A stretch of DNA of 48,576 nucleotides, from contig JAJFFJ010000065.1 of assembly GCA_021776685.1 (NCBI GenBank), positions 1 to 48,576 of the forward strand, written 5' to 3'. Position 1 is the first letter of the stretch. Every line of letters starts with the position of its first letter. The notes below the pieces were generated by a model. That model was not told the DNA's origin. It did not search any database and saw only the letters and a list, made by a program, of their open reading frames with translations. Both the position numbers and the translations under genes were made by a program. Positions 2 through 48,406 of the stretch are shown here, piece after piece. Source of the stretch: Alphaproteobacteria bacterium. Lineage in GTDB: Bacteria; Pseudomonadota; Alphaproteobacteria; Bin65.

Positions 2-2152
2 GCCGAGGAGGCCTACCGGGAGGCTCTGAAGGAGCGCCGCCAAAACAACGCCCCTATGGACTGGGCCATGACCCAGAACAATCTCGGCAACCTGCTGCAG
101 GCCCTAGGTGAGGCAACCGGAGACATAGGCACACTGCACCAGGCAGAGGACGCCTTCCAACAGGCCCTGAAGGAGCGTCGCCAAGACAACGCGCCGATCG
201 ACTGGGCTGCGACCCAAAACAATCTTGGCGCGCTACTGCAGACCCTCGGGAAGGCCACCGGGGATATCGTCACCCTGCGCCGGGCCGAGGAGGCCTACCG
301 AGAGGCCCTTAAGGAACGCGGTCGGAACGATACCCCGAAGGCTTGGTCAGAGACGATGGCGAATCTGTCCAATCTCTATCGTTCGATGGAGGATTGGGTT
401 TCTGCTATTGAGACCCTCCAGGATCTTTTGTCGGGAACCGCCCTAACGGTGGCGACGACGCCAATGCCGGGCGAGGCTCGAGGTGTTTTGCGTTCCGCCC
501 GCGGCCAAGGCGACCTTTTGTCGTGGTTATTATTGCAAGACGGTCGTGCTTCGGAGGCTCTGGGCGGCGCGGAGTTTGGCCGTGCGATTTCGTTACGCGC
601 CCACTCGGCTCAGGTGCTTTTCACCACCGAGGGTGAAGTGAGCGAGCATCTTCTAAACTGGCGCGCTGCCGTAGCCCGTGCGGAGGCCGCGGGCCAATCC
701 ATCAACGAGGAAGTTCAGGAGGCGTTTGGCGCTTTTCGTCAGGCCCTCGATGACGCCGGCCTCGGCGTACCCGAGTCACTGTCGGTGGCCGAGATCGGCT
801 TCGCCCTTCCCGATGGCAGCGTCTTTGTTCTTCCGATTGTGACGGAATACGGCGGGGCGATCTTCTTCGTCCGGCAGGGCCAGACGGAGCTTACCGACGA
901 CCATGTGCTGATGATGCCTGAGCTTACCACCGAGGCCGTCCAACACCTCCTGGCCCGTAAGCTCGACGGTCAAGATGATGATGCCCCTCCCGTTGAGGAT
1001 GACGATGCCGCCGCTGCTGAGGGGTGGACCGGCTGGCTGCCTGGCTATATGGCCTTCCGGGCTTCCATCAACCAATATTTCCAGCCGCGCCGGGGCGCCG
1101 TTGCCGCCTGGAACAGCCAGATCGAAAGCACGCTGAGCGAGATGTGGGACCTGATCATGAAGCCGGTCCACAACCGCCTCATTCAGCTGGGACTGACGCC
1201 GGCGGACAAGACCGAGAATGCAGAGGCATTAGCCCCGGAAGTGATCCTGGCGCTGCCTGGCACGATTGCTACTCTCCCGTGGCATGCCGCCGGATACGAA
1301 ATGGAGGACGGTTCTCGCTCCTACGCTCTTTCCAGCTGGGCCTTTTCCTATACCCCCAGCATCGGCACCCTGATCACCGGCCGAAGGAAACTGGAGAAGC
1401 TCAGGGACACCCCGAACAGCCTCTTAGCCGTCACCAACCCTAGCAATGACTTCCTCGCTTCCGACGGCAACCCGGTGCGGCAGACTCCCGTCTGGGACCT
1501 CTTCGAGGATCCGTACAGAACGGACCTCAAGGGCGCCAAAGTAGCCGCCTCACACCATGACGATGTCGCCACCCTCGCGCGCATCACCGAGGCCATGCCC
1601 GAGGCCAAGTACTACGTCATGTACACCCATGGCAGCGGCAACCTGTTGGGTGTCGATACAGCAGCCCTTACCACCGCGGACTTTCCCCTCACACCAGAGC
1701 ACCTCCGCCGCATGAACCTGGAAGCAGCCCGCTATGCCATGCTCGCCGCCTGCGATTCCGGCACCCTGGATATCCAACACCTCCCGGACGAGTTCAGTGG
1801 CATGCAACTCAGCATGTTGGAGGCTGGTTGTCCGGGAGCCTGCGGAACGCTGTGGCCTGTGGAAGTGTCTGTCACCGCCCCCCTGGTCCGGGAATTCTTC
1901 AGCCACCATCTGGGCCAACCCGGCACTGGCGGCCTGTCGCCCGCGCAGGCCCTGCGCAAGGTACAGCTCAACATGCTGGATCACGCTGAGCCCGCTCCCG
2001 ACAGCGCCGTCGCAAGCACTGCATCTGGCTTCGACGAGGACGAGGACACCGGCGAAACACAACCCAAAGACGGCAACACCCAGGAATATCAACGTCGGCC
2101 AGACGTCGCCTTACCTTTCTTCTGGGCGGCATTCGCACACTGGGGCGTGTGA
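2..2152 (+). CDS. TPR-CHAT protease, 5' end cut by window
   Basis: The reading frame is open from the window edge, so the start lies upstream; 716 residues are visible. The N-terminal part holds about three degenerate 47-residue TPR-type repeats with the signature TQNNLGNLLQALGEATGD. A helical middle follows, and then a C-terminal CHAT domain (caspase-like, clan CD). The catalytic His lies in YTHGSGN (His codon 1628-1630) and the catalytic Cys in LAACDSGT (Cys codon 1751-1753); the later motif GACGTLWPVE is also typical of CHAT. CHAT-TPR proteins are known as proteases in bacterial conflict systems, activated by partner proteins or nucleic acids; a role here is inferred from family and location. 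The C-terminal half is close to the CHAT gene at 3543, with long identical stretches. A probable terminator directly follows the stop. Confidence 0.9.
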   Translation, partial: AEEAYREALKERRQNNAPMDWAMTQNNLGNLLQALGEATGDIGTLHQAEDAFQQALKERRQDNAPIDWAATQNNLGALLQTLGKATGDIVTLRRAEEAYREALKERGRNDTPKAWSETMANLSNLYRSMEDWVSAIETLQDLLSGTALTVATTPMPGEARGVLRSARGQGDLLSWLLLQDGRASEALGGAEFGRAISLRAHSAQVLFTTEGEVSEHLLNWRAAVARAEAAGQSINEEVQEAFGAFRQALDDAGLGVPESLSVAEIGFALPDGSVFVLPIVTEYGGAIFFVRQGQTELTDDHVLMMPELTTEAVQHLLARKLDGQDDDAPPVEDDDAAAAEGWTGWLPGYMAFRASINQYFQPRRGAVAAWNSQIESTLSEMWDLIMKPVHNRLIQLGLTPADKTENAEALAPEVILALPGTIATLPWHAAGYEMEDGSRSYALSSWAFSYTPSIGTLITGRRKLEKLRDTPNSLLAVTNPSNDFLASDGNPVRQTPVWDLFEDPYRTDLKGAKVAASHHDDVATLARITEAMPEAKYYVMYTHGSGNLLGVDTAALTTADFPLTPEHLRRMNLEAARYAMLAACDSGTLDIQHLPDEFSGMQLSMLEAGCPGACGTLWPVEVSVTAPLVREFFSHHLGQPGTGGLSPAQALRKVQLNMLDHAEPAPDSAVASTASGFDEDEDTGETQPKDGNTQEYQRRPDVALPFFWAAFAHWGV

Positions 2153-2183
2153 AGACCTATGCCTGAAGTGGTCTTGTTTTTTT
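2152..2183 (+). terminator. Probable rho-independent terminator after first CHAT gene
   Basis: A 6-bp stem AAGACC/GGTCTT (2152-2157 with 2170-2175) with a 12-base loop is followed by one G and seven T (2177-2183). It overlaps the last base of the CHAT stop codon. The stem is short, so strength is uncertain. Confidence 0.5.
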
Positions 2184-2310
2184 CCACTGTTCCGACCTGC
2201 GCGTAAGATGTGTCGGTCGGGACATTCAAATCTTATGAAACATTCTCGATGGCGGTCGACCACTTAGCGAAGATCAGTCAATATCGAGATTACTAAAGTA
2301 TTGCGGCGTC

Positions 2311-3546
2311 ATGGGCGCCGTTGAAGTACTCAGCGAACTGGTGGATATAGTGCCACGGCGAATTGACAGCAATTCAGGCGGCCCCTCCGACCCCAATACA
2401 ACCGCAGAGGGCCAGGCGCCGCCGCTACCGCCCGAGGTGATCCGCCTTTGGAACGAAGCGGAAGAAATTACCTCGACGAACCCGAACGCGATTAGGGAAA
2501 AGGTTAGTCTCCTTGAACAGTGCCGGGACCTGCTCGGGGGGGTGCCCGAGCATTGGCACGCAATCGGCGTGGCACACGGCGCCCTGGGCAACCTGCTGCG
2601 GTCCCTGGGCGAGGCCACGGGCGACATCGATGCCCTGCGACGGGCCGAAGCGGCCTATAGCGAGGCGCTGAAGGAATATCGACGGGACAACGCCCCCATG
2701 GACTGGGCTGGGACTCAGAACAACCTCGGTAACCTGCTGAAGGCCCTGGGCGAGGCTACGGGTGACGTCGACACCCTGCGCCGGGCCGAAGCGGCCTATG
2801 GCGAGGCGCTAAAAGAATATCGACGGGACAACGCCCCCATGCAGTGGGCCGCGACCCAGAACAACCTCGGTGCCCTGCTGCAGTCGCTGGGCGAGGCCAC
2901 GGGCGTCCTCGATGCCCTGCGCCGGGCCGAGGCCGCCTTTGGCGAGGCGCTCAAAGAACGCCGCCAGGACATCGCCCCGATGAACTGGGCTGGGACCCAG
3001 AACAATCTCGGCGCCCTGCTGCAGGCACTGGGCGAGGCCACGGGCGACATCGACAGCCTGCGCCGGGCCGAGACCGCCTTTCGCGAGGCGCTCAATGAGC
3101 GCCGCGAGGACAACGCCCCAATGCTGTGGGCTAGGACCCAGTGTAATCTCGGCACCCTGCTACAGACCTTGGGCGAGGCCACGGGCGACATCGATGCCCT
3201 GCGACGGGCCGAAGCGGCCTATGGCGAAGCGCTCAAGGAGTATCGCCAGGACAACGCCCCCATGGACTGGGCAATGACCCAGAACAATCTCGGCAACCTA
3301 CTGCGGGCTCTTGGCGGAGCCACGGGCGACATCGACAGCCTGCGCCGGGGTGAGACGGCCTTTAGCGAGGCGTTGAAGGAATATCGTCAGGATAATGCCC
3401 CGATGAACTGGGCTGGGACCCAGAACAATCTCGGCACCCTGCTGCAGGCACTGGGCGAGGCCACGGGCGACATCAATACCCTGCGCCGGGCCGAAGCGGC
3501 CTATGGGGAGGCGCTGAAAGAGCAACGTCGGGTCAATGATCCATGA
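2311..3546 (+). CDS. TPR-repeat protein, partner or severed N-terminal half of the next CHAT gene
   Basis: This 411-residue protein has about 85 unique N-terminal residues followed by seven repeats of exactly 47 residues (141 bp at DNA level). Consensus features are GEATGDIDxLRRAEAAY, EALKEYRRDNAP and MxWAxTQNNLGxLL. These are long TPR-like units identical in style to those at the start of the first CHAT protein. It stops inside a repeat, and the next gene begins with the rest of a repeat in the +2 frame, through an ATGA overlap (3543-3546). Either the ancestral TPR-CHAT protein was split by a one-base change, or the two parts are made as translationally coupled subunits. No transmembrane segment or signal peptide is visible. 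The start ATG has only a weak ribosome binding site. Confidence 0.8.
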   Translation: MGAVEVLSELVDIVPRRIDSNSGGPSDPNTTAEGQAPPLPPEVIRLWNEAEEITSTNPNAIREKVSLLEQCRDLLGGVPEHWHAIGVAHGALGNLLRSLGEATGDIDALRRAEAAYSEALKEYRRDNAPMDWAGTQNNLGNLLKALGEATGDVDTLRRAEAAYGEALKEYRRDNAPMQWAATQNNLGALLQSLGEATGVLDALRRAEAAFGEALKERRQDIAPMNWAGTQNNLGALLQALGEATGDIDSLRRAETAFREALNERREDNAPMLWARTQCNLGTLLQTLGEATGDIDALRRAEAAYGEALKEYRQDNAPMDWAMTQNNLGNLLRALGGATGDIDSLRRGETAFSEALKEYRQDNAPMNWAGTQNNLGTLLQALGEATGDINTLRRAEAAYGEALKEQRRVNDP

Positions 3547-5559: not shown

Positions 5560-7029
5560 TTAAGCCCCGGCGACGTCACGCAGCAGGTTGCGGATCCAGT
5601 CCAGATCGCCACGACCGAGCGGATAGAACCGATACTTGGTGGCGCCGCCAGTAAAGACGGCGCGGCTCTCGACCCAGTCGGGATCCAGCTCGTCGAGGGA
5701 GACCGAGCCCGGCAGATCGGGAGCCGGTTTCCACTTTCGGCGCAGGACCAGATCCTGGCAGTCGGCTACAATGGCGGCATCACCATTCAGTGGCACAACG
5801 AAATAGGCTTGCTGGCGGTGTTCATAACGCAGGTTGAGAAGCAAAGGAGCCCAGCGGGTGTAGTGCTCGATTACCCGTGGGTCACGCTCTGCCGGGGGCA
5901 GCTCGGTCGTATCCGGGTCGTCCAGCTCGCGCAGCCGCCACAGGAGCAGTAAAATAAACAGCTCGATGCCCCCGGCCATACCCAGTGCAAGCTTGGCCTG
6001 GCCGAACAGCTTGGCGAACTTCGGGTCCGACTGGCCGGTGACCATCTGGCCGAACACTTTGAACGCGATCGCATAGGACAGCTTTATCGCGTCGCCGAAG
6101 TCGAGGATTTCAATTGTCGGCGGCGTGCCGGTCTTCACGGCGGACAGCGCGTCAAGCTGGCGCTTGAGGTCGAGCAGCTGGCGAACCGATGCCCGATCCC
6201 CGCAAATGAACCTGGCGCCCGTCTTCGGGTCATAGAATTGAGTCCGGAACGCCGTCAGGTTTGTCTCCACAAAGTGACGCATGGCAGACAAGCGGGGATC
6301 CGCCTTGAGTCTCCTCAGCTCAGCGTAAGCCTTGTTGACTTCTGTCTGCGTCAGCTTCTTGCGGAAGCGTGCCAGGATGATGATGGCGCCGGTGGCCATG
6401 GCGCGGGCCTGAGATGCGAAGCGCGTGGCCTGCTGCTGCTGGTGTTTGCGCATCCGATGGCGGCGCCCACGCTTACGGACAACAAGTTTTTTGCCGTCAC
6501 AAGAGGTGCCGCGGCTGACCTCCTGCCGGGCCTTATCTCGCGTCAGCAGCGCCGTACGATCCATGCTGCCGGCAAAGACCTCGAACCGTTTTTGGATTTC
6601 GGCGGCAGGCACCATGATCGCCTGGCTTTGGCCGAGATGGATGAACTGCGCGAGATCAGATGCAGCCATGATGTGCAACCAACAACCCATCGCGAGAAGC
6701 GCACTGATCGAGGAGAGGACGCTGCCGGCGACGGTAAAAATGGTCCTCACTTTAACTGAATTTTGCCTGTCAAGGGCGGCTCCCCAGAAGATGATGATGC
6801 CCAGCGACAGCATCGTCGTCACCACGCCGGCAGTGATGACCGCCTGCCATAGGCTGATCTGGGTGGCGAACCATGTGACTATTCCGACGCCGGATGAAAG
6901 CAGACTCAATTTTATCAGGAGGAAAAGTTCAAGCCAGATCGGTAGTTTCTTGGACCGGAAGATGCGGGCGTACCAGGCGGACTGTTGCCTGACGCTGGCG
7001 CCCCCGGAGGTGGCGAGTTTGGTGGTCAT
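5560..7029 (-). CDS. Multi-pass membrane protein of unknown function
   Basis: I do not recognise a family. The 489-residue protein has three hydrophobic helices near the N-terminus (about residues 33-55, 58-80 and 95-117). Then comes a long soluble part with a very basic patch (VRKRGRRHRMRKH), a charged helical stretch, a fourth hydrophobic segment near residue 355 (MAGGIELFILLLLW), and a C-terminal soluble domain of about 120 residues rich in W, Y and D. It is transcribed convergently to the CHAT genes and in the same direction as the PBP gene upstream. Its leader carries the same TTGAC-rich motifs as the PBP leader, which suggests joint control. It could be a membrane-bound effector or a substrate of the CHAT proteases; that is inference only. 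Confidence 0.75.
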   Translation of the reverse strand: MTTKLATSGGASVRQQSAWYARIFRSKKLPIWLELFLLIKLSLLSSGVGIVTWFATQISLWQAVITAGVVTTMLSLGIIIFWGAALDRQNSVKVRTIFTVAGSVLSSISALLAMGCWLHIMAASDLAQFIHLGQSQAIMVPAAEIQKRFEVFAGSMDRTALLTRDKARQEVSRGTSCDGKKLVVRKRGRRHRMRKHQQQQATRFASQARAMATGAIIILARFRKKLTQTEVNKAYAELRRLKADPRLSAMRHFVETNLTAFRTQFYDPKTGARFICGDRASVRQLLDLKRQLDALSAVKTGTPPTIEILDFGDAIKLSYAIAFKVFGQMVTGQSDPKFAKLFGQAKLALGMAGGIELFILLLLWRLRELDDPDTTELPPAERDPRVIEHYTRWAPLLLNLRYEHRQQAYFVVPLNGDAAIVADCQDLVLRRKWKPAPDLPGSVSLDELDPDWVESRAVFTGGATKYRFYPLGRGDLDWIRNLLRDVAGA

Positions 7030-7092
7030 TAGACTGTCCCTGCTTGGAGATACACGCAGGGGCAGTTTACTATTTTCGGAAATATAAACATC

Positions 7093-7156
7093 TGACGATA
7101 CTTGACTATAATTCGCTTTTGCAATTTTCCTGACGATAGTTGACGAACATTTACTT
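7093..7156 (-). promoter_or_regulatory. TTGAC-rich repeated motif upstream of membrane protein gene
   Basis: An AT-rich stretch holding TGACGATA (7093-7100), TTGACTATA (7102-7110) and TGACGATAGTTGACGA followed by ATTTACTT (7131-7156). The same motifs recur before the PBP gene at 9928-9978, in both cases about 50-130 bases upstream of the start codon. This fits shared operator or promoter elements; which strand acts as promoter is not clear. Confidence 0.45.
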
Positions 7157-7238
7157 CATCTATTTTTCTAATATCAATATAGAGCCATGATATATTGCCA
7201 GTCCCATGATAATCAAGGGTATCTACGGGTTTCCTCCC

Positions 7239-7364
7239 TCACGCGCTGTCTTGAGTGACCGCCACCCAAATGAAAACCAAGGCGGTCGTCAGCAGGGTTG
7301 GGGGTGAGGTGCCCGTGGGAATGGCGACGGGAATATCGGCGAAGTCGCCATCCCCGTTGGCCAC
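7239..7364 (-). CDS. Possible small membrane peptide (41 aa)
   Basis: A frame beginning with GTG (7362-7364), preceded at short distance by AGAGG, encodes 41 residues ending at TGA 7239-7241. The C-terminal half (TLLTTALVFIWVAVTQ) could form one membrane helix. It lies between the PBP gene and the membrane protein gene on the same strand. Composition is GC-rich, unlike the AT-rich leader next to it. There is no family match that I know; it may equally be a remnant. Weak evidence. Confidence 0.25.
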   Translation of the reverse strand: MANGDGDFADIPVAIPTGTSPPTLLTTALVFIWVAVTQDSA

Positions 7365-7387
7365 AAGGCCTCTATCACGATTGGCGG

Positions 7388-9862
7388 TTACTGGGACGCC
7401 TGGTCATCTGCCCGCGGCGGCAAGCTCTTCAGGACCACGGCAACAAGGCCAGTCAGATGCCGTGTCGTCACTTTCCCCAGAGCTGTCTTGATCGACGGGC
7501 TGCCGACCAGAACAAAGAGTACAAAACGTCGACCGCGACACCGGAACGAGGCAAAAATCATTTTGTCCCGAACCGCGCCTATTTCGATGCCTTCGCTTGT
7601 CGCCGTCTTGCCCAAGGAATCATGGCAGCGATACCGGGCAATAAGCGGTCGAAGCGCGCGCAGCGTACCCGACGAGGCCAGAGGAGCGGCCAGGATCTTG
7701 CGAACCATGTCCTTGCGCTTACGCGGCAGGTAGGCGGACAGATCAATGACGCGTTGCGGTTTGCCCGCAGCAGTCACCTGCGGCAGACCGGCCCGTGCCA
7801 ACTGACCGTCCAGGGCATTGGCGACGGCGGCCCACCAACGCACCAAGGTCATCGGTGTGGCGGGGGCGCCATGGCCGAGGACCGACCGGTAAGCGTAGTC
7901 AGCGGCATTATCTGTTGCAGCCGGGAAGCCGCTGACGTGAAGGTAGGTGTCCCGCTTTCTTTCGCCGATTTTCAGGAGGCCATCGATGAAGGGCAGATTG
8001 TAGCTCCGACCCAGGGCCATCAGCAGGGGCACACCGCCTACGCCGTTCCTGCAACGGGCGACCCCGGTGTTGCCGTTTGGATTGGCGATGCCCCGGAACC
8101 GCTTGTTGCACAGGTAAACCAGACCGTTATTGACAAACAACGGCACCAGCACGGCCTTGAAGGCCGATCCCGTTGATCTGGTCGCTTTCCCCGAACGGTA
8201 CATATCCGTATTCGGGTCCCACGCGAGCGGACCTGTGAACTGGAAATGGCGGTTGCCGATCATAATCACGGGTCGTACGACCGGGCCGTCGACACGGAAA
8301 AGGCCAACGAAGACATCTGCCGGTGTCTGGTCAGGATCGCACGCGACGGCGCACAGGCGCTTGTCCATCGGACGTCCCCAGCCATGGAAACGCACGCGAC
8401 CGCGGTAGCCATCGAGACGCCGCAGACGTTGGGCTATTCGACGCTGGGCACGACGTTGCGCAGGGCCATGGATCGACAGGATCAGATCGCCGGTTGGCGA
8501 CCGGTTGGCCACCTTAAGCATGTCGTTGATCGGCTTGATCGCGCCCGGCAGGGCGTATGCCAGCAATCGCGCCGGATCGACGAAGGGAACCCTGCGCCCG
8601 GAGATACGCTGACGACGACCGAACTTCATGAGGTCAATCTGACGCTTGAAGGTCTGAACCTGAGCGGCGGACCATCCAAATGAAGGCGTCAACCGATCGA
8701 TGCAGTTCGATTTGGCGCGGATTCGAATCTTCTGAATGCGCTTGGCAAACTCGTCACGCAACCAGTGTTCCGGCGAACGTGGCCCGGGCAAACGTACCTG
8801 GTAGAGAATGGCGGCGCTCCAGACGCAAAGCTCCGCCGGTGTCAGCTGCTCAGGCTTCTTACCCCAGAGGACAAGCGGCACCAGGCCACCGCCAACACCG
8901 CCGCCGAAGCGGCTCGCCCTCCCGCCAATCACTACGGGGATCGTGGCAGCAAACTGATTGCGTGCATCACCGTCTTTGAGATAGTGCGCCGTATAGACTG
9001 CTGCCTGGACCGTATAAATAACCTTGGAGAGTGGGTCGGCGCGGCCAGGATTGGCATCGAGATTCTTCATCATGGTTTCGACCAATGACGAGCCGCCGGT
9101 CACGGCGCCATGGCGAAACAACCGGATTGGAATGAGCAGCTTGCCCCACCAATTGACGCCGGACACGGTTTGCCAGTGCGTGGTGTAACGGCCTTCGACG
9201 GCTTCGAGATAGGGGCGGAACTTGCGCGCGAACTCTATTGAGACCGGCACATAGCGAAACACCCGTTCCTCCGGTTGGCAATCGGGTTTGACCGGGAGAA
9301 TCGAATAGACGCTGCCGTCACCCCGCCACCTGACAATTTGAAATTCGGAGCAGCGGCGATTTCGCTCAAGACCTGAAACGATGGAATTCGGAACCATCAA
9401 GCGCAGCAGCTGGCGAACTGCATCATCGATCAGACCGGGTGCAAAAGCATGCAGGCCGATGCCAATTGCGCCCAGCATCAGAAGCCAGCGCAGGATCTGG
9501 CGGCCACCCGTGAATAAACCGAGGACGAAGAACAGAATACCGCCGGCGAACAACGCCAATCCCGGCAAAAGACCCAGGAGACGTAAGCCACCCGAAAGGA
9601 TCAACCTGACGATAAAGAAAATCAGGCGGAAGGGATTCAGGAATGACGGCAGTGTCAGGGGCGGCCAGGTGGCCGCCCCACCCGCCGGCAACGGACCGAA
9701 GACGAAGCGCCGCGCATTTGGGCGCCGTGGCTTCGCATTTTTGTATGCGTGAAAGGCGTCTTCCTCTGCGGCGCGCGTGCCACGCTGCCGATCGAGCGCC
9801 CGCGCAGGGGCCGAGTCCCGTTGCTTCAGTGCCTTGACATGACGCCTTTTCTCGCGGTTCAT
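7388..9862 (-). CDS. Divergent class A penicillin-binding protein (GT51 plus transpeptidase)
   Basis: The start ATG at 9862 is chosen because AGGAGGTGA lies four bases before it. The 824-residue protein has a basic N-terminal tail and two or three hydrophobic helices (about residues 75-145). A GT51-like region follows: EGRYTTHW near residue 222 resembles the catalytic ExxFxxH motif of peptidoglycan glycosyltransferases, and GGSSLVETMMKN near 256 matches GGSTITQQLxKN. A transpeptidase-like domain has TGSAFK (SxxK, about residue 562), SYN (SxN, about 617) and GKTATSEG (a KTG-like KTA, about 749) in the right order and spacing. Active residues look kept, but the sequence is far from ordinary PBP1 proteins and sits in a mobile element beside CHAT proteases. 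Possible roles are cell-wall remodelling, an immune effector, or a decoy. The family assignment rests on motifs only. Confidence 0.75.
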   Translation of the reverse strand: MNREKRRHVKALKQRDSAPARALDRQRGTRAAEEDAFHAYKNAKPRRPNARRFVFGPLPAGGAATWPPLTLPSFLNPFRLIFFIVRLILSGGLRLLGLLPGLALFAGGILFFVLGLFTGGRQILRWLLMLGAIGIGLHAFAPGLIDDAVRQLLRLMVPNSIVSGLERNRRCSEFQIVRWRGDGSVYSILPVKPDCQPEERVFRYVPVSIEFARKFRPYLEAVEGRYTTHWQTVSGVNWWGKLLIPIRLFRHGAVTGGSSLVETMMKNLDANPGRADPLSKVIYTVQAAVYTAHYLKDGDARNQFAATIPVVIGGRASRFGGGVGGGLVPLVLWGKKPEQLTPAELCVWSAAILYQVRLPGPRSPEHWLRDEFAKRIQKIRIRAKSNCIDRLTPSFGWSAAQVQTFKRQIDLMKFGRRQRISGRRVPFVDPARLLAYALPGAIKPINDMLKVANRSPTGDLILSIHGPAQRRAQRRIAQRLRRLDGYRGRVRFHGWGRPMDKRLCAVACDPDQTPADVFVGLFRVDGPVVRPVIMIGNRHFQFTGPLAWDPNTDMYRSGKATRSTGSAFKAVLVPLFVNNGLVYLCNKRFRGIANPNGNTGVARCRNGVGGVPLLMALGRSYNLPFIDGLLKIGERKRDTYLHVSGFPAATDNAADYAYRSVLGHGAPATPMTLVRWWAAVANALDGQLARAGLPQVTAAGKPQRVIDLSAYLPRKRKDMVRKILAAPLASSGTLRALRPLIARYRCHDSLGKTATSEGIEIGAVRDKMIFASFRCRGRRFVLFVLVGSPSIKTALGKVTTRHLTGLVAVVLKSLPPRADDQASQ

Positions 9863-23264: not shown

Positions 23265-23713
23265 GGTTTTGCCTCCGAAATGGGTCGCGCCATCTGTGGC
23301 GCGCGTTTGGCGAGATGATAGGTCAAGGCCATTGCAATGCAATGGGCGAGTTCCGGTCCTGACGGACGGCCGCAGTCGAAAAGCATGCTACGGTTGCCCG
23401 CAAATTCAAACGCATCGGGGTAAAGCAGGCGGAATTGCTCGACGAGGTTAGTGTTGCAGTTGAAATGAACCGCATAGCGGTGTGCCAGCGCCCGGCTCGG
23501 GGCAAGCCGCACTGTGCTGCCGCTGCCGGTTTCCGGGGTCAGGTAAGCGGGTTCACCCCATTTCAGGCATTCGTCCAGCTTGCCGACGCCGGGGGTGTCG
23601 CGGGCGGTCTGAAAGATCAGTTCGCGCGTGGCCATCAAGGCGCTGCGCATTTCCGGCGCGCAACGATCAAATACCGCCTTAACCTCGGGATTGGTAAAGC
23701 GGCGATATCGCAT
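23261..23713 (-). CDS. DUF1801 domain protein
   Basis: A 150-residue protein of the DUF1801 (YdhG-like) fold: ELIFQTARDTPGVGKLDECLKW, GEPAYLTPETGSGSTVRL, and FNCNTNLVEQFR. Function of this family is not established. It is the first of a two-gene operon with the cupin protein, and divergent from the amidohydrolase. Confidence 0.8.
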   Translation of the reverse strand: MRYRRFTNPEVKAVFDRCAPEMRSALMATRELIFQTARDTPGVGKLDECLKWGEPAYLTPETGSGSTVRLAPSRALAHRYAVHFNCNTNLVEQFRLLYPDAFEFAGNRSMLFDCGRPSGPELAHCIAMALTYHLAKRAPQMARPISEAKP

Positions 23714-23729
23714 AATCTGTCACTGGCCC

Positions 23730-24791
23730 ATGTCTGAACGTTGCCTTTGGCGTGAGTGTAGGCACAATCTGCGGGCATCTGTCACCTTCATCCATGGAAA
23801 GGCTGCAACCATCGCCATCGACATGCATTCCCATTTTTATGGCGCCGGTCTGGATGATGCCATGCGGGGCAGGGACCAGGTGCCCATGCTGGTAATGGAG
23901 GACGGGCAGGAAAAGCTCGCCGCCATGACGGCGCGCTTTCCGTTCACGCCGCCCTATCACGATGTGACCGCCCGTCTCGACTGGATGGCGCAGCAGGGTT
24001 TCACTGCACAGTTGCTGACCTATCCGGGCGCCCTTGGGATGGATGCGCAGCCGGCAGGGGAGTCGGCGCCGGTTCTGTTCGCCTACAATGATGCCCTGTC
24101 AGAAATCTGTACGACCTATTCCGGCCAATTCTATGGCCTTGGCGGTCTTCCGCTGGCGGATATGGGCGCCGCGGCCGGTGAAATGGCACGGCTACGCCGC
24201 GAACTGGGACTCCTTGGCGCCTTGCTGCCGGGCAACTATTTCACTTCCATTGATGCGGTGGATGCTGTTCGACCTGTGCTGGCACAAGCTGACGAGATTG
24301 GCGCTCATATCCTGATCCACCCAGGGCTGATCCCCGGGGAGATGCCAACACCGCCAATAATGGATAATCCAGGATACCGCGCCTCGGCGATCACATTGCA
24401 AAGCACGGTATCACAGATTGTCATCACCCTGATCATGTCTGATCTGCTCGAGAGTTATCCGGGGGTCAGTTTTCAGGTGATCAATTTGGGCGGCACGATT
24501 CCCTTTATCGAGGAGCGCATGGTGCAGATTGCCCAGAACCGCACCCCTGACCAGCCCTTTCCCCACGAGAGGCTGCAGAAACTCTATTACGACACAGCGT
24601 CCCTGGGGCCACGGGCGCTGGAAACCGCGGTGCACTGCTACGGGGCGGACCGGATCATGCTGGGTTCGGACTATCCCATTTTCAACGGCCTACCGGCGGA
24701 GGAGCTGCTTGGCCAGGCCGACCTGACCGGCCAGGAACGCGAACAGATTGCTCATGGTACCGCACAGACGTTGATCGACCGGCTGGCCTGA
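23730..24791 (+). CDS. Amidohydrolase 2 family (ACMSD-like) protein
   Basis: A metal-dependent TIM-barrel enzyme: HxH in IDMHSHFYG, then QLLTYPGALGM, AHILIHPGLIPGEMP, LGGTIPFIEERM, and the metal-binding Asp in RIMLGSDYPIF. ACMSD-like members decarboxylate aromatic or semialdehyde acids or hydrolyse C-C bonds. The start is uncertain: ATG 23730 gives 353 residues, but the first 30 look unlike the family, and a start near IAIDMHSH (ATG 23823) is possible. Gene neighbours suggest a step in aromatic acid breakdown. Confidence 0.85.
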   Translation: MSERCLWRECRHNLRASVTFIHGKAATIAIDMHSHFYGAGLDDAMRGRDQVPMLVMEDGQEKLAAMTARFPFTPPYHDVTARLDWMAQQGFTAQLLTYPGALGMDAQPAGESAPVLFAYNDALSEICTTYSGQFYGLGGLPLADMGAAAGEMARLRRELGLLGALLPGNYFTSIDAVDAVRPVLAQADEIGAHILIHPGLIPGEMPTPPIMDNPGYRASAITLQSTVSQIVITLIMSDLLESYPGVSFQVINLGGTIPFIEERMVQIAQNRTPDQPFPHERLQKLYYDTASLGPRALETAVHCYGADRIMLGSDYPIFNGLPAEELLGQADLTGQEREQIAHGTAQTLIDRLA

Positions 24792-24862: not shown

Positions 24863-26002
24863 ATGACAGCAAATCTGGCGGCAAATCTGATCGACTATCA
24901 AAGTGCCCCTGTGCCTGTGCGCGAAGACCTGGTCGCGGCGCAGAGACGGGCATGGGCTCGACTGGCGGCGCCGGGCACTTGGTGGGATGGCGCGACTCGC
25001 GTCGCCCTTGCCGCGGAGACCCGACAGGCGCTGTCCTGCCGCTATTGCGCTGACCGCAAGGATGCTCTTTCTCCCTACGCGCTCGACGGAACCCACGACT
25101 CGGTCACGGATCTGCCGCCGGTCCTGGTGGATGTGATCCACCGGGTGCGCACGGACGCCAGCCGGCTGACCGAGCGATTCTATCTGGATGCGTTGGCCGG
25201 CGGCCTCACTGACGCGGAATATGTGGAGACCATCGGTGTCCTCGCCACAGTCATCGCAATTGACAGTTTTGCCGATGCCCTGGGTGTTGCCCGGCCGTCA
25301 TTGCCGGAACCGCAAGCAGGAGAGCCAACCGGTGATCGCCCTGTGGGCGCCAAACCTGGTCTCGCCTGGGTACCCACCCTGGCGCCGGAGGATATGACCG
25401 ACGCGGAAGCGGGTATGTATGACGGCATGGCCGCGATGAATATTCACCGGGCGCTCAGTCTGGTGCCAGCGGAGGTGGTGGGGTTCTTCGATCTCGACGC
25501 GGTCTGCTATCTGCCTGACGCGGTTTTGCGCGATTTCGGCACGGAATATCGCGATCTGACCCATGCGCAGATCGAGTTCCTCGCCGCCCGGGTCTCCGCT
25601 ATCAATCAGTGCGTTTACTGAACCACCAGCCATGCGGTGCTGCTCCGTGGGAGCGGCGAACATGACGGCATCGATTATGATCTGGACGCCATCATCGGCC
25701 AAGGCGCGACAGGCGATGTAGCGCCGGTCGCCCACGCGGCGTTGCTTAGCGCCTATGCCGAAGCCTTTTACGAAAGTGAAGGCGGGTTGGCGTCTGTCCG
25801 GGGCAGGATTGCAGATGAAATGGGGCCAGGATGCCTGATCGACGCGGCGGCGACGGTCGCGATTTTCGATGCGGTGGTCAAGATAGCCGATGCCACAGGA
25901 ATTCCATTGGAGGATGCAAAAGCCGAGATTTCGGAAGACATTCGTGGCAGTTTGGGTATTGATCAGTTTCCTTCAGCCGGCAGCAAGACAGGCGCTGGCT
26001 AA
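24863..26002 (+). CDS. AhpD-like two-domain selenoprotein (Sec at residue 253)
   Basis: The frame opens at ATG 24863, meets TGA at 25619-25621, and continues in the same frame to 26002. Reading TGA as Sec gives 379 residues. The TGA falls exactly on the second Cys of the AhpD/carboxymuconolactone decarboxylase active site: Cys250-Val-Tyr-Sec253 followed by TTSH (His257), where relatives have CxxC-xxx-H. The sequence after the TGA keeps the family pattern (SHAVLLRGSGEHDG, AHAALLSAYAEAFYESEGG). An N-terminal domain carries another CxxC (LSCRYCADRKDAL, near residue 60). A stem-loop 25 bases after the TGA fits a bacterial SECIS. AhpD-like proteins are thiol-based peroxidases or reductases; Sec would raise reactivity. 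A sequencing error or nonsense mutation of TGC/TGT is the alternative. Confidence 0.85.
25619..25657 (+). promoter_or_regulatory. UGA(Sec) codon and candidate bacterial SECIS
   Basis: After TGA 25619-25621, an 8-bp stem GCTGCTCC/GGAGCGGC (25639-25646 with 25650-25657, one G-U pair) closes a GTG loop whose first base is G. The gap from the UGA to the loop is 25 bases, within the spacing usual for SelB-dependent bacterial SECIS hairpins. The hairpin is inside the coding frame, as expected in bacteria. Confidence 0.75.
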
Positions 26003-26020: not shown

Positions 26021-26335
26021 ATGTCTGGTGGGTTTTCGGTAGCAGGTCGGAAAAGCGATACCGCGCGTTCGCGGCGTGACTCTTCAAAGAATCCGTTGAA
26101 TTTCGACGAGGGCACCTGGGGCGCGGCCTTTGCGGAAAATGGCGGTCCCCAGTATGTCATTTTCTTTATCCTCGCGGTGGGCGGCACCATCTTTTGCGCT
26201 CTCACTGTCTACAATATCGACGGCCATCTGCACTATCTGTGGCTGATCACGATCCTCTTCTGGCTGTCTTTTTTGCGCGGAGCCCTGCGGCTTCTGAGGT
26301 GGTTGATCAGGGTGCGTGGGGCGTCCAGCACCTAG
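26021..26335 (+). CDS. Small membrane protein, unknown
   Basis: A 104-residue protein with a polar N-terminal third and two adjoining hydrophobic segments (VIFFILAVGGTIFCALTVYN and LWLITILFWLSFLRGALRLL) ending in a basic tail. No family recognised. It sits 18 bases after the selenoprotein and GAGGAT precedes the start, so it may be co-transcribed. Confidence 0.55.
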   Translation: MSGGFSVAGRKSDTARSRRDSSKNPLNFDEGTWGAAFAENGGPQYVIFFILAVGGTIFCALTVYNIDGHLHYLWLITILFWLSFLRGALRLLRWLIRVRGASST

Positions 26336-26414
26336 CCACACACCAGCCGCCGGGTTTACGGTAGGCGATGGAAAAAGGAACTGCGCGCGCGCCGCGCCGC
26401 AGAAGAGGCTCGCA

Positions 26415-27269
26415 ATGATTCCCCTTATCGATATCCGCTATGTGAGACTTGGAACGCAGGATCTGGCGGCTAACCGGCATTTCGCGACCGAGATCGTTGG
26501 CCTGGAAGTGGTCGACGAAACGCCGAGCACCGTCTATGTGCGCGGTGATAATCGCGATCACAATATCTGCTATTTCAAAGGCGACCCGTCGGATCACACC
26601 ACGGCTTTCGAGATTGAGCGAGAGGCGGACTACGAAGCCGCCGAACGTGAACTGGCGGATGCAGGTATTGAGATCGTACAGGGCACCGCCGAGGGCCGGT
26701 CGGAGCGCCGGGTGGAAGCCTATTTCACCTTTGCCGATCCCAGCGGCAACAAGATCGATCTGGTGTACAGGCCGCATTTCAACCCGGAACCTTTCATGCC
26801 CAGCCGCAAGGTGGGGATCGAGGAATTCAGCCATGTGGGCCTGAAGACCACCGATGCGGCGCGTGACGAGAAATTCTGGACCCAGCGCTTCAACATGCGG
26901 GTGAACGACTGGATCGGCCCCGCGCCGCTCATGTCCTTTGACCAGGTGCATCACCGCCTGGCCCTGTTCCCGACCGACCAGCCTGGCGTGCAGCACATCA
27001 ATTTCCAAGTGGACGGAATCGATTCGATCATGCGCTCCTGGTACTACCTGCAAGAGCGGCAGGTGCAGATCCGGTTTGGTCCGGGGCGTCATCCTTCGTC
27101 CAGTGCGATGTTCCTGTATTTCGAAGGGCCGGACAAAATCATCTACGAATACTCCCACGGCGTTCGACTGGTGACGCCGGACACATGGCGGCCAAGACAG
27201 TTTCCGTTCGACAACAAATCATTCTGCTTCTGGGGTGCGACCCCGCAGATTGACGAATTTGTCGAATAG
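26415..27269 (+). CDS. VOC-family extradiol-type dioxygenase
   Basis: The start ATG 26415 follows AGAGG. The 284-residue protein has two glyoxalase/VOC modules: LGTQDLAANRHFATEIVGL in the first, and in the second the likely metal ligands His (IEEFSHVGLKTTD), His (VQHINFQVDG) and Glu (IIYEYSHGV), the order found in type I extradiol ring-cleavage dioxygenases. It would open a catechol-type ring between or beside hydroxyls. Surrounding FAH and aldolase genes fit a meta-cleavage pathway. Substrate not determinable. Confidence 0.85.
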   Translation: MIPLIDIRYVRLGTQDLAANRHFATEIVGLEVVDETPSTVYVRGDNRDHNICYFKGDPSDHTTAFEIEREADYEAAERELADAGIEIVQGTAEGRSERRVEAYFTFADPSGNKIDLVYRPHFNPEPFMPSRKVGIEEFSHVGLKTTDAARDEKFWTQRFNMRVNDWIGPAPLMSFDQVHHRLALFPTDQPGVQHINFQVDGIDSIMRSWYYLQERQVQIRFGPGRHPSSSAMFLYFEGPDKIIYEYSHGVRLVTPDTWRPRQFPFDNKSFCFWGATPQIDEFVE

Positions 27270-30285: not shown

Positions 30286-30879
30286 ATGCCGCGCGTAAAC
30301 CCCCTGACAAAGGACGATGTGCCGGAGCTGTCCGAAGGCTTCGCCAACATGGAAAAGATCCTTGGCTTTGTGCCGAACAGCAACCTGATCATGGCGCGGC
30401 GGCCGGAAATCCTGAAAAGCTTTCAGGCGCTGGCAACGTCGATCTTCGCGGCGCCGGGGATTCCGCCGGACCTGAAAGTCATGATCGGCCACGTGGCCAG
30501 TCGGGCAGCGGGTTGCAGCTATTGCATGGCCCATACCGGGCATATGGTGGAGGCGCGGGGCGTGGCACCGGAAAAGCTCGATGCCATCTGGGACTACGAG
30601 CGTAGCGATCTCTTCACACCAGGTGAGCGGGCAGCGCTGATGGTGGCGCAGAGTGCCGGTATGGTGCCTAACGCGGTGACCGACGCCGATTTTGACGAAC
30701 TCAAGAAGCACTGGGATGAAGATCAAGTGGTGGAGATCGTTTCGGTCATCGCGCTTTATGGCTTCCTCAATCGGTGGAATGACACCCTGGCCACAGAGTT
30801 GGAGTCGCCGCCGCTTTCCTTTGGTCAGGAACGGCTGTCGGATGCGGGCTGGGACGCCGGAAAGCACGCAGCGGAATAG
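30286..30879 (+). CDS. AhpD-like (carboxymuconolactone decarboxylase) peroxidase-related protein
   Basis: A 197-residue protein starting after GGGAG. The active site is GCSYCMAHTGHM (CxxC-xxx-H), within HVASRAAGCSYC typical of uncharacterised peroxidase-related AhpD proteins. The C-terminal WDEDQVVEIVSVIALYGFLNRWND is characteristic. It is a paralogue of the gene at 47810 and more distantly of the selenoprotein at 24863. Likely a thiol-disulfide oxidoreductase. Six bases separate it from pncA. Confidence 0.9.
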   Translation: MPRVNPLTKDDVPELSEGFANMEKILGFVPNSNLIMARRPEILKSFQALATSIFAAPGIPPDLKVMIGHVASRAAGCSYCMAHTGHMVEARGVAPEKLDAIWDYERSDLFTPGERAALMVAQSAGMVPNAVTDADFDELKKHWDEDQVVEIVSVIALYGFLNRWNDTLATELESPPLSFGQERLSDAGWDAGKHAAE

Positions 30880-47809: not shown

Positions 47810-48406
47810 ATGCCCCATATCGACCCCAAGACCCGTGAAGAACTGGCCGAGCTTGAAGACGTGTTCGAGCGCGCGGAGATGGCAATGGGCTTTGTGCCCA
47901 CCAGCTTTTTCATGATGGGCCGCAAGCCGAATATTCTGCGCGCTTTCTCGCAGCTGTCCCGCGAAGTACTGGGTGTGCCCGGCAAGGTGCCGGTGGATCT
48001 GAAGTGGCTGGTCGCTCATGTGGCGAGCCGGTCAGCCGGATGTCAGTACTGCACGGCCCATACCGGCGCCGCGGGCGCGGGGCGCGGCGGCCTGCCGGCG
48101 GAGAAGGTGGCGGCGGCTTTCGAATATGAAACCAATCCGATGTTCAGCGATGCGGAGCGGGCAGCGCTGGCCTTCGCCCAGGCCGCAGGTCAGCAGCCGA
48201 ACCTGGTCGACAAGTCAGACCATGAGGAATTGCTCAAACATTTCGACGAAGATCAGATCGTCGAGATCATGGCCGTGATCTGCCTGTTCGGCTGGCTCAA
48301 CCGCTGGAACGACTCCATGGCAACCGCGCTGGAAGAAGAGCCCAAAGAGTTCGGCGAGAAGAACCTGGCGCAGAATGGCTGGGAGGTCGGCCGGCATACG
48401 GGGTAG
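47810..48406 (+). CDS. AhpD-like (carboxymuconolactone decarboxylase) peroxidase-related protein
   Basis: A 198-residue paralogue of the gene at 30286, with the active site GCQYCTAHTGAA (CxxC-xxx-H) and the C-terminal FDEDQIVEIMAVICLFGWLNRWND. Likely a thiol-disulfide reductase or peroxidase. It may be read together with the TauD-family gene 71 bases upstream. Confidence 0.9.
   Translation: MPHIDPKTREELAELEDVFERAEMAMGFVPTSFFMMGRKPNILRAFSQLSREVLGVPGKVPVDLKWLVAHVASRSAGCQYCTAHTGAAGAGRGGLPAEKVAAAFEYETNPMFSDAERAALAFAQAAGQQPNLVDKSDHEELLKHFDEDQIVEIMAVICLFGWLNRWNDSMATALEEEPKEFGEKNLAQNGWEVGRHTG

Follow-up and report, generated by a model that had tools for sequence, protein, structure and literature searches.

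One gene in the DNA analysed here, a 48,576-nucleotide stretch of an alphaproteobacterial draft genome (the window), in all probability encodes a single fused AhpD-type protein whose in-frame UGA is decoded as selenocysteine (Sec). We put the probability of this reading, which rests on sequence comparison, at roughly 0.93. By its profile match the gene is a further member of NCBIfam NF041238, that is, of a known, biochemically uncharacterised selenoprotein family and not of a new one. A preliminary description of the window had called the product a probable AhpD-like selenoprotein of the CxxU type; sel genes in the same genome, conservation of the TGA and codon choice in the downstream hairpin back this assignment. 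Coordinates are collected in Table 1.

Table 1. Features of the NF041238 gene and its surroundings (positions in the window)
Feature	Positions	Strand	Basis and remarks
Putative Sec-containing AhpD-related protein (NF041238), 379 aa with TGA read as Sec	24863..26002	+	Translation; profile match
In-frame TGA, predicted Sec253, second position of the C-x-x-U-x-x-x-H active-site motif	25619..25621	+	Translation; homolog alignment; corresponds to the second CxxC cysteine of solved AhpD-like proteins, e.g. 6k40
Active-site motif C250-V-Y252-U253-T-T-S-H257	25610..25633	+	Invariant, with E238 (25574-25576), in 57/57
N-lobe C59-R-Y-C62	25037..25048	+	With H78 and H93 part of the invariant set in alignment A2; aligned in register with C250/U253
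SECIS-type hairpin	25638..25658	+	Arms 25638-25646 / 25650-25658, apical loop GUG; fold and codon choice
Small two-helix membrane ORF, 18 nt downstream	26021..26335	+	ORF list, domain scan; possible operon partner, not conserved
Extradiol-dioxygenase-like protein	26316..27269 (start may be 26412)	+	Domain match; not conserved
Amidohydro_2 family protein, upstream	23691..24791	+	Domain match; not conserved at the NF041238 family

Reading frame, hairpin and Sec machinery

With TGA read as a residue, the frame contains a single TGA and yields C250-V-Y-U253-T-T-S-H257, just as the preliminary description had it (exactly one in-frame TGA, at the second Cys of a CxxC-xxx-H motif). Translation table 11 turns the same stretch into two ORFs of 252 aa and 121 aa, the split that had been foreseen for standard gene callers. 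Family sequence had been claimed for both sides of the TGA, and the frame indeed shares on average 53% identity with 56 homologs 5' of it and 46% 3' of it. In comparisons with five relatives, changes 3' of the TGA fell mostly on codon position 3 (0.60-0.69, versus 0.27-0.37 at positions 1 and 2). That is, judged by its substitutions, the sequence 3' of the TGA evolves under protein-level selection. Both Cys-type relatives reported from the window were recovered, with GCSYCMAHT in 30286-30879 and GCQYCTAHT in 47810-48406.

The UGA would be decoded by the cell's own SelA/SelB/SelC/SelD system by way of the hairpin just 3' of it. This SECIS-type stem-loop, already described as standing at the right distance, lies 24-25 nt 3' of the TGA; its 30-nt core folds with -14.4 kcal/mol (z -2.4), and an alternative fold places a 5-nt loop, CGUGG, on a 7-bp stem. 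Published bSECIS rules call for a loop of 3-9 nt with a G in its first two positions, an upper stem of 4-16 bp, a distance of 16-37 nt from the UGA and an energy of at most -7.5 kcal/mol (PMC13188914). With its loop GUG, a spacing of 25 nt and the core energy given above, the window hairpin falls within these limits, and an automatic form of the rules was passed by 86 of 111 extracted sequences. An Rfam scan of the window gave no match. Folding energy alone is weak support for a SECIS element, since a 54-nt segment spanning the TGA shows no unusual stability (z -0.64).

Decisive support comes instead from codon choice across 109 distinct homologs. Leu+8 is encoded by CTC in 108 of 108 cases (25% elsewhere in the same genes), Arg+9 by CGT in 97 of 108 (10% elsewhere), Ala+10 by GCG in 62 of 62 (41%) and Ser+11 by AGY in 107 of 107 (37%). 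Stem pairs were retained at 6.31 of 7, versus 3.69 ± 0.13 in synonymous codon redraws. By these measures, selection at the nucleotide level acts on the hairpin that follows the TGA. Codon choice was used because the upper stem hardly varies, which leaves compensatory covariation uninformative. When the whole genome was searched for a TGA followed after 21 bases by the hairpin, ten places were found (one in a reversed control): the five NF041238 paralogs, four tiny frames and one further real frame. The latter, GVGCUGACTPAVLRAS, is UGSC-like with a long C-terminal part and scores 38.5 bits with NF041046, below the cut-off of 125. The SECIS assignment gains independent support from it, because an unrelated gene has this hairpin equally far from its TGA. 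This frame, on the minus strand at locus L159 (G000:C8) with its TGA at 9486-9488, continues for about 400 aa in its C-terminal part and may be a longer UGSC variant.

In the organism's own genome, a draft assembly of 4.54 Mb in 158 contigs, the gene is accompanied by four paralogs (62, 45, 44 and 40% identity), all of which have TGA at the corresponding codon. The Sec reading had been made to depend on sel genes, above all selB and selC, and all four are present: selA (584 bits), selB (404 bits), a tRNA-Sec (selC) with anticodon tca, and a SelD domain (301 bits, cut-off 125) fused to an NADH-dehydrogenase-like domain. On contig C84 the SelD fusion, tRNA-Sec, selB and selA all lie between two NF041238 paralogs. 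Sel genes stand beside family genes in some other genomes too (e.g. G017, G004, G007, G100 and G132; loci L134 and L149), and within the flanks of only 4 of the 80 loci of a GTDB-based collection described below. On the tree, the five paralogs are spread over at least four old subfamilies, orthologs of most being present in related genomes; the number of paralogs is therefore not the product of a recent burst. The sel locus and one NF041238 paralog are adjoined by TupA- and TupB-like tungstate transporter genes (L011 13684-15227, G000:C84), whose matches score below their NCBIfam equivalog cut-offs.

Other readings of the TGA fare poorly against this evidence. An ordinary stop, leaving a 252-aa protein and a 121-aa ORF that is a separate gene or debris, agrees with the split under table 11. 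However, protein-level selection continues past the codon, codon choice behind it maintains a hairpin, and the TGA recurs in 98 of 98 distinct homologs and is confined, within the class sample, to selB-bearing genomes; we regard a stop as very improbable. Decoding as some other residue, such as Trp, through a changed code or near-cognate readthrough is hardly credible in a genome with a complete Sec system including tRNA-Sec (tca), given that selB is found in every family-bearing genome of the class sample and that Cys is the aligned residue in solved relatives. Only one base separates TGA from TGC or TGT, and the assembly is a draft in 158 contigs, yet a sequencing or assembly error for Cys is next to impossible when four paralogs and every homolog found in independent assemblies have a TGA there too.

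Family membership, distribution and neighbourhood

The protein matches NF041238 with 451.3 bits (cut-off 175) over residues 19-370 of 379 and model positions 1-356 of 357. Its CVYUTTSH agrees with the family motif C-x-[YF]-U-T, which has Sec at the second redox position and is kept among homologs. The match to PF02627 (CMD; 29.5 bits, cut-off 23), found at E up to 0.05 in 57 of 57 homologs, and the predicted AhpD fold place it in the AhpD/CMD superfamily. NF041238 (AhpD_rel_CFYUT, 'alkylhydroperoxidase-related (seleno)protein') is listed as a CxxU selenoprotein family in a 2026 review, which identifies it with 'hypothetical protein 1' from the Sargasso Sea selenoproteome (PMC13188914). The latter was described in 2005 among 15 new selenoprotein families; it then comprised four sequences and had a CxxU motif (PMC1088965). 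The window protein shares with this family the full-length match, the CxxU with Sec second and the downstream bacterial SECIS, and nothing sets it apart. The two-domain form with an N-terminal CRYC, which had been thought possibly new, is the norm of this known family. The AhpD-like 1 and 2 selenoproteins of the Global Ocean Sampling data likewise belong to the AhpD/CMD superfamily and carry CxxU, but they represent other families, of COG2128 and pfam02627 type, in whose case numerous Cys homologs were counted (PMC2398784).

Among 385 genomes of the class, 27 contained NF041238 at or above the cut-off, with 52 matches, every one of them with one TGA. SelB reached its cut-off in 54 of the 385, including all 27 NF041238 genomes (hypergeometric p 8e-27, too small a value given shared ancestry, although the 27 of 27 stands). 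A GTDB-based collection was scanned with a seed stretch that excluded the Sec codon, and in the resulting 80 loci every family-type site was U and none was C. The tree comprised 98 distinct proteins, all Sec, genomes common to both collections appearing as identical rows. Among 398 genomes drawn over the phylum, the family was detected in the own genome only. That is, no Cys form of NF041238 turned up in 385 class and 398 phylum genomes or in 80 further loci, and a search of plasmids for the family gave no match. Within the examined sample the family is apparently Sec-only. A few Cys homologs were counted in 2005, by the standards of that time (PMC1088965), and the NF041238 family name too allows for Cys members. 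Cys occupies the Sec-aligned place in solved AhpD-like proteins, a Sec/Cys pair at the superfamily level only.

The same searches gave several further observations. In three genomes with selB, weak NF041238 matches with one TGA inside (G037:C141:202-594, G269:C1:1309112-1309753 and G382:C2:1385822-1386412) are possibly single-domain AhpD-like selenoproteins of other families. Locus L098 holds two tandem NF041238 selenoprotein genes, both CxYU, whose assigned coordinates (6004-7122 and 7122-8198) overlap by one base. Bin names indicate that several of the nearest homologs (L076-L090) apparently derive from marine sponge metagenomes, which suggests an ecological bias. Records L094 and L148, named Rhizobium sp. 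and Bordetella parapertussis, group with uncultured proteobacteria in the tree, and these MAG names are probably wrong.

The small membrane protein and the extradiol dioxygenase that had been described as adjoining the gene are both present as ORFs. Neither of them, nor the Amidohydro_2 protein, lies next to any of the close homologs, and the novelty proposed for this arrangement is not supported. Clustering of flanking ORFs yielded no stable partner, likely only clade-level synteny and spurious antisense ORFs. The neighbours say little about function, since none adjoins close homologs, and we dropped them as a functional clue.

Predicted fold, conserved sites and proposed chemistry

An AlphaFold2 model built from 57 sequences is all-helical with a mean pLDDT of 94.6. 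The modelled chain comprises two fused helical lobes of AhpD type. A structure search with it matched the C-lobe (about residues 165-359) to 6k40, 2oyo and 2prr with Z about 13, and the best whole-chain match was human Sestrin2 (Z 17.0, 241 residues, 3.5 A, 10% identity). Sestrins (Sestrin2; 5t0n, 5dj4) likewise combine two AhpD-type lobes in one chain and have the equivalent active-site Cys, Tyr and His (PMC4674687). In contrast, their active site lies in the N-terminal lobe with Leu second in the motif, whereas the window protein has its site in the C-terminal lobe with a predicted Sec second. Neither Pfam scans to E 10 nor a profile search of PDB sequences to E 10 returned a sestrin. Sequence membership was lacking, as was a sestrin's combination of N-lobe active site and C-lobe GATOR2-binding motif; the active-site set stands at residues 238-257. 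The resemblance, as modelled, is one of fold only. A review has shown that an AhpD dimer, when fused artificially, looks like Sestrin2, and that double-AhpD proteins exist in bacteria (PMC11429811). Likeness to sestrin is thus expected of any fused AhpD pair and descent is not implied; the passages of the review consulted do not mention selenoproteins. A joint search of open-access literature on sestrins, selenoproteins and AhpD gave only papers with other topics, which is weak evidence of novelty. Nor did the literature searched yield an earlier account of the absence of Cys forms among about 98 distinct homologs, of the Sestrin2-like predicted fused fold or of an N-lobe set (C59/C62/H78/H93) jointly absent from one clade.

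In the C-lobe, E238 (15 residues before the Sec), C250, Y252, U253 and H257 are invariant in 57 of 57 family members (alignment A2). They match Glu74, Cys86, Tyr88, Cys89 and His93 of the Ralstonia protein YP_296737.1 (2prr) and the proton relay of AhpD and Sestrin2, and through the equivalent site Sestrin2 and M. tuberculosis AhpD reduce cumene hydroperoxide (PMC4674687). Single-domain peroxidase-related AhpDs (TIGR01926; 6k40, 2prr, 3c1l, 2oyo) have the C-lobe fold, the E/C/Y/C/H set and CxYC-xxxH in common with the window protein. They consist of one lobe and use Cys, however, where the window protein has two fused lobes and a predicted Sec second, and its TIGR01926 score of 28.6 lies below the cut-off of 81.8.

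By analogy, the most likely function is that of a Sec-dependent alkyl-hydroperoxide or thiol reductase; for peroxide-reductase activity taken alone, we lean towards it. Sec253 would stand at the place of AhpD's catalytic cysteine in the C-terminal lobe. Its selenolate, activated by Glu238, Tyr252 and His257, would reduce an organic hydroperoxide or a similar oxidised substrate, and Cys250 would resolve the oxidised Sec253 through a Se-S bond, as in AhpD. These roles, Sec253 attacking and Cys250 resolving, are assigned because of the analogy with the AhpD/Sestrin2 relay (PMC4674687). An outside thiol system would then regenerate the enzyme, possibly by way of the N-lobe CxxC.

The AhpD fold also hosts other activities, such as that of the Cys-dependent debrominase Bmp8, which resembles thyroid deiodinase. 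The same selenoprotein could mainly serve reductive dehalogenation or some other aromatic reduction, with an attack of its selenol on the halogen like that of thyroid deiodinase. Bmp8, solved with substrate as a C82A mutant, is among the structure matches (6ohi, 6ohj; Z 12.3), but ranks below Sestrin2 and the peroxidase-related AhpDs. The window copy lies near Amidohydro_2, extradiol-dioxygenase-like, FAH-type and class II aldolase-like ORFs, a neighbourhood which is not conserved at homologs. Halogenated aromatics are common in marine sponges, the apparent source of several nearest homologs by their bin names. Since the full AhpD proton-relay set is retained as well, we consider dehalogenation an unlikely main activity and prefer the reductase reading.

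The N-lobe carries a conserved set of its own: C59 and C62 are found in every one of 57 family members, and H78, H93, D98 and R101 complete the invariant set in A2. It has no proton relay, with K66 and not His at the place equivalent to H257. A profile comparison of the two halves put C59-x-x-C62 in register with C250-x-x-U253 (single-comparison E 1.5e-4, probability 51%), which suggests, without proving it, that the two lobes arose by internal duplication. In a second alignment (A1), a clade of loci L070-L072, which stand together on the tree, lacks C59, C62, H78 and H93 and mostly also D98 and R101. There are hints in these sequences that C59, C62, H78 and H93 act together, as a metal site or redox relay; they remain hints because the joint absence in this clade is one evolutionary event at most. 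L070 itself holds two tandem copies of the clade without N-lobe CxxC (237-1325 and 1477-2565, minus strand). A bolder and rather doubtful proposal is that the family is an apparently Sec-only bacterial sestrin-like double-AhpD, in which a C-lobe Sec peroxidase/dehalogenase site is recycled by an N-lobe Cys2His2 centre. If so, the centre of C59, C62, H78 and H93 would be redox-active or metal-binding and the enzyme self-contained, and the joint absence of all four residues in one clade would mark one functional unit.

Meaning for the family

Naive gene calling breaks this selenoprotein gene in two. NF041238 has been known from metagenomes since 2005, and we found no tested function for it. To this family the present analysis adds the absence of a Cys form in the sample, five copies in one genome, the N-lobe CxxC as the norm and a predicted sestrin-like architecture. 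This one uncharacterised Sec family accounts for at least five paralogs in the genome, two of which flank the Sec operon. The interest of the case rests on the family, which is Sec-only in the sample and has fused lobes and a second conserved site, and not on the single find. Leads on what selenium buys these bacteria come from the missing Cys forms in the sample, the predicted fused lobes and the second conserved Cys/His set.
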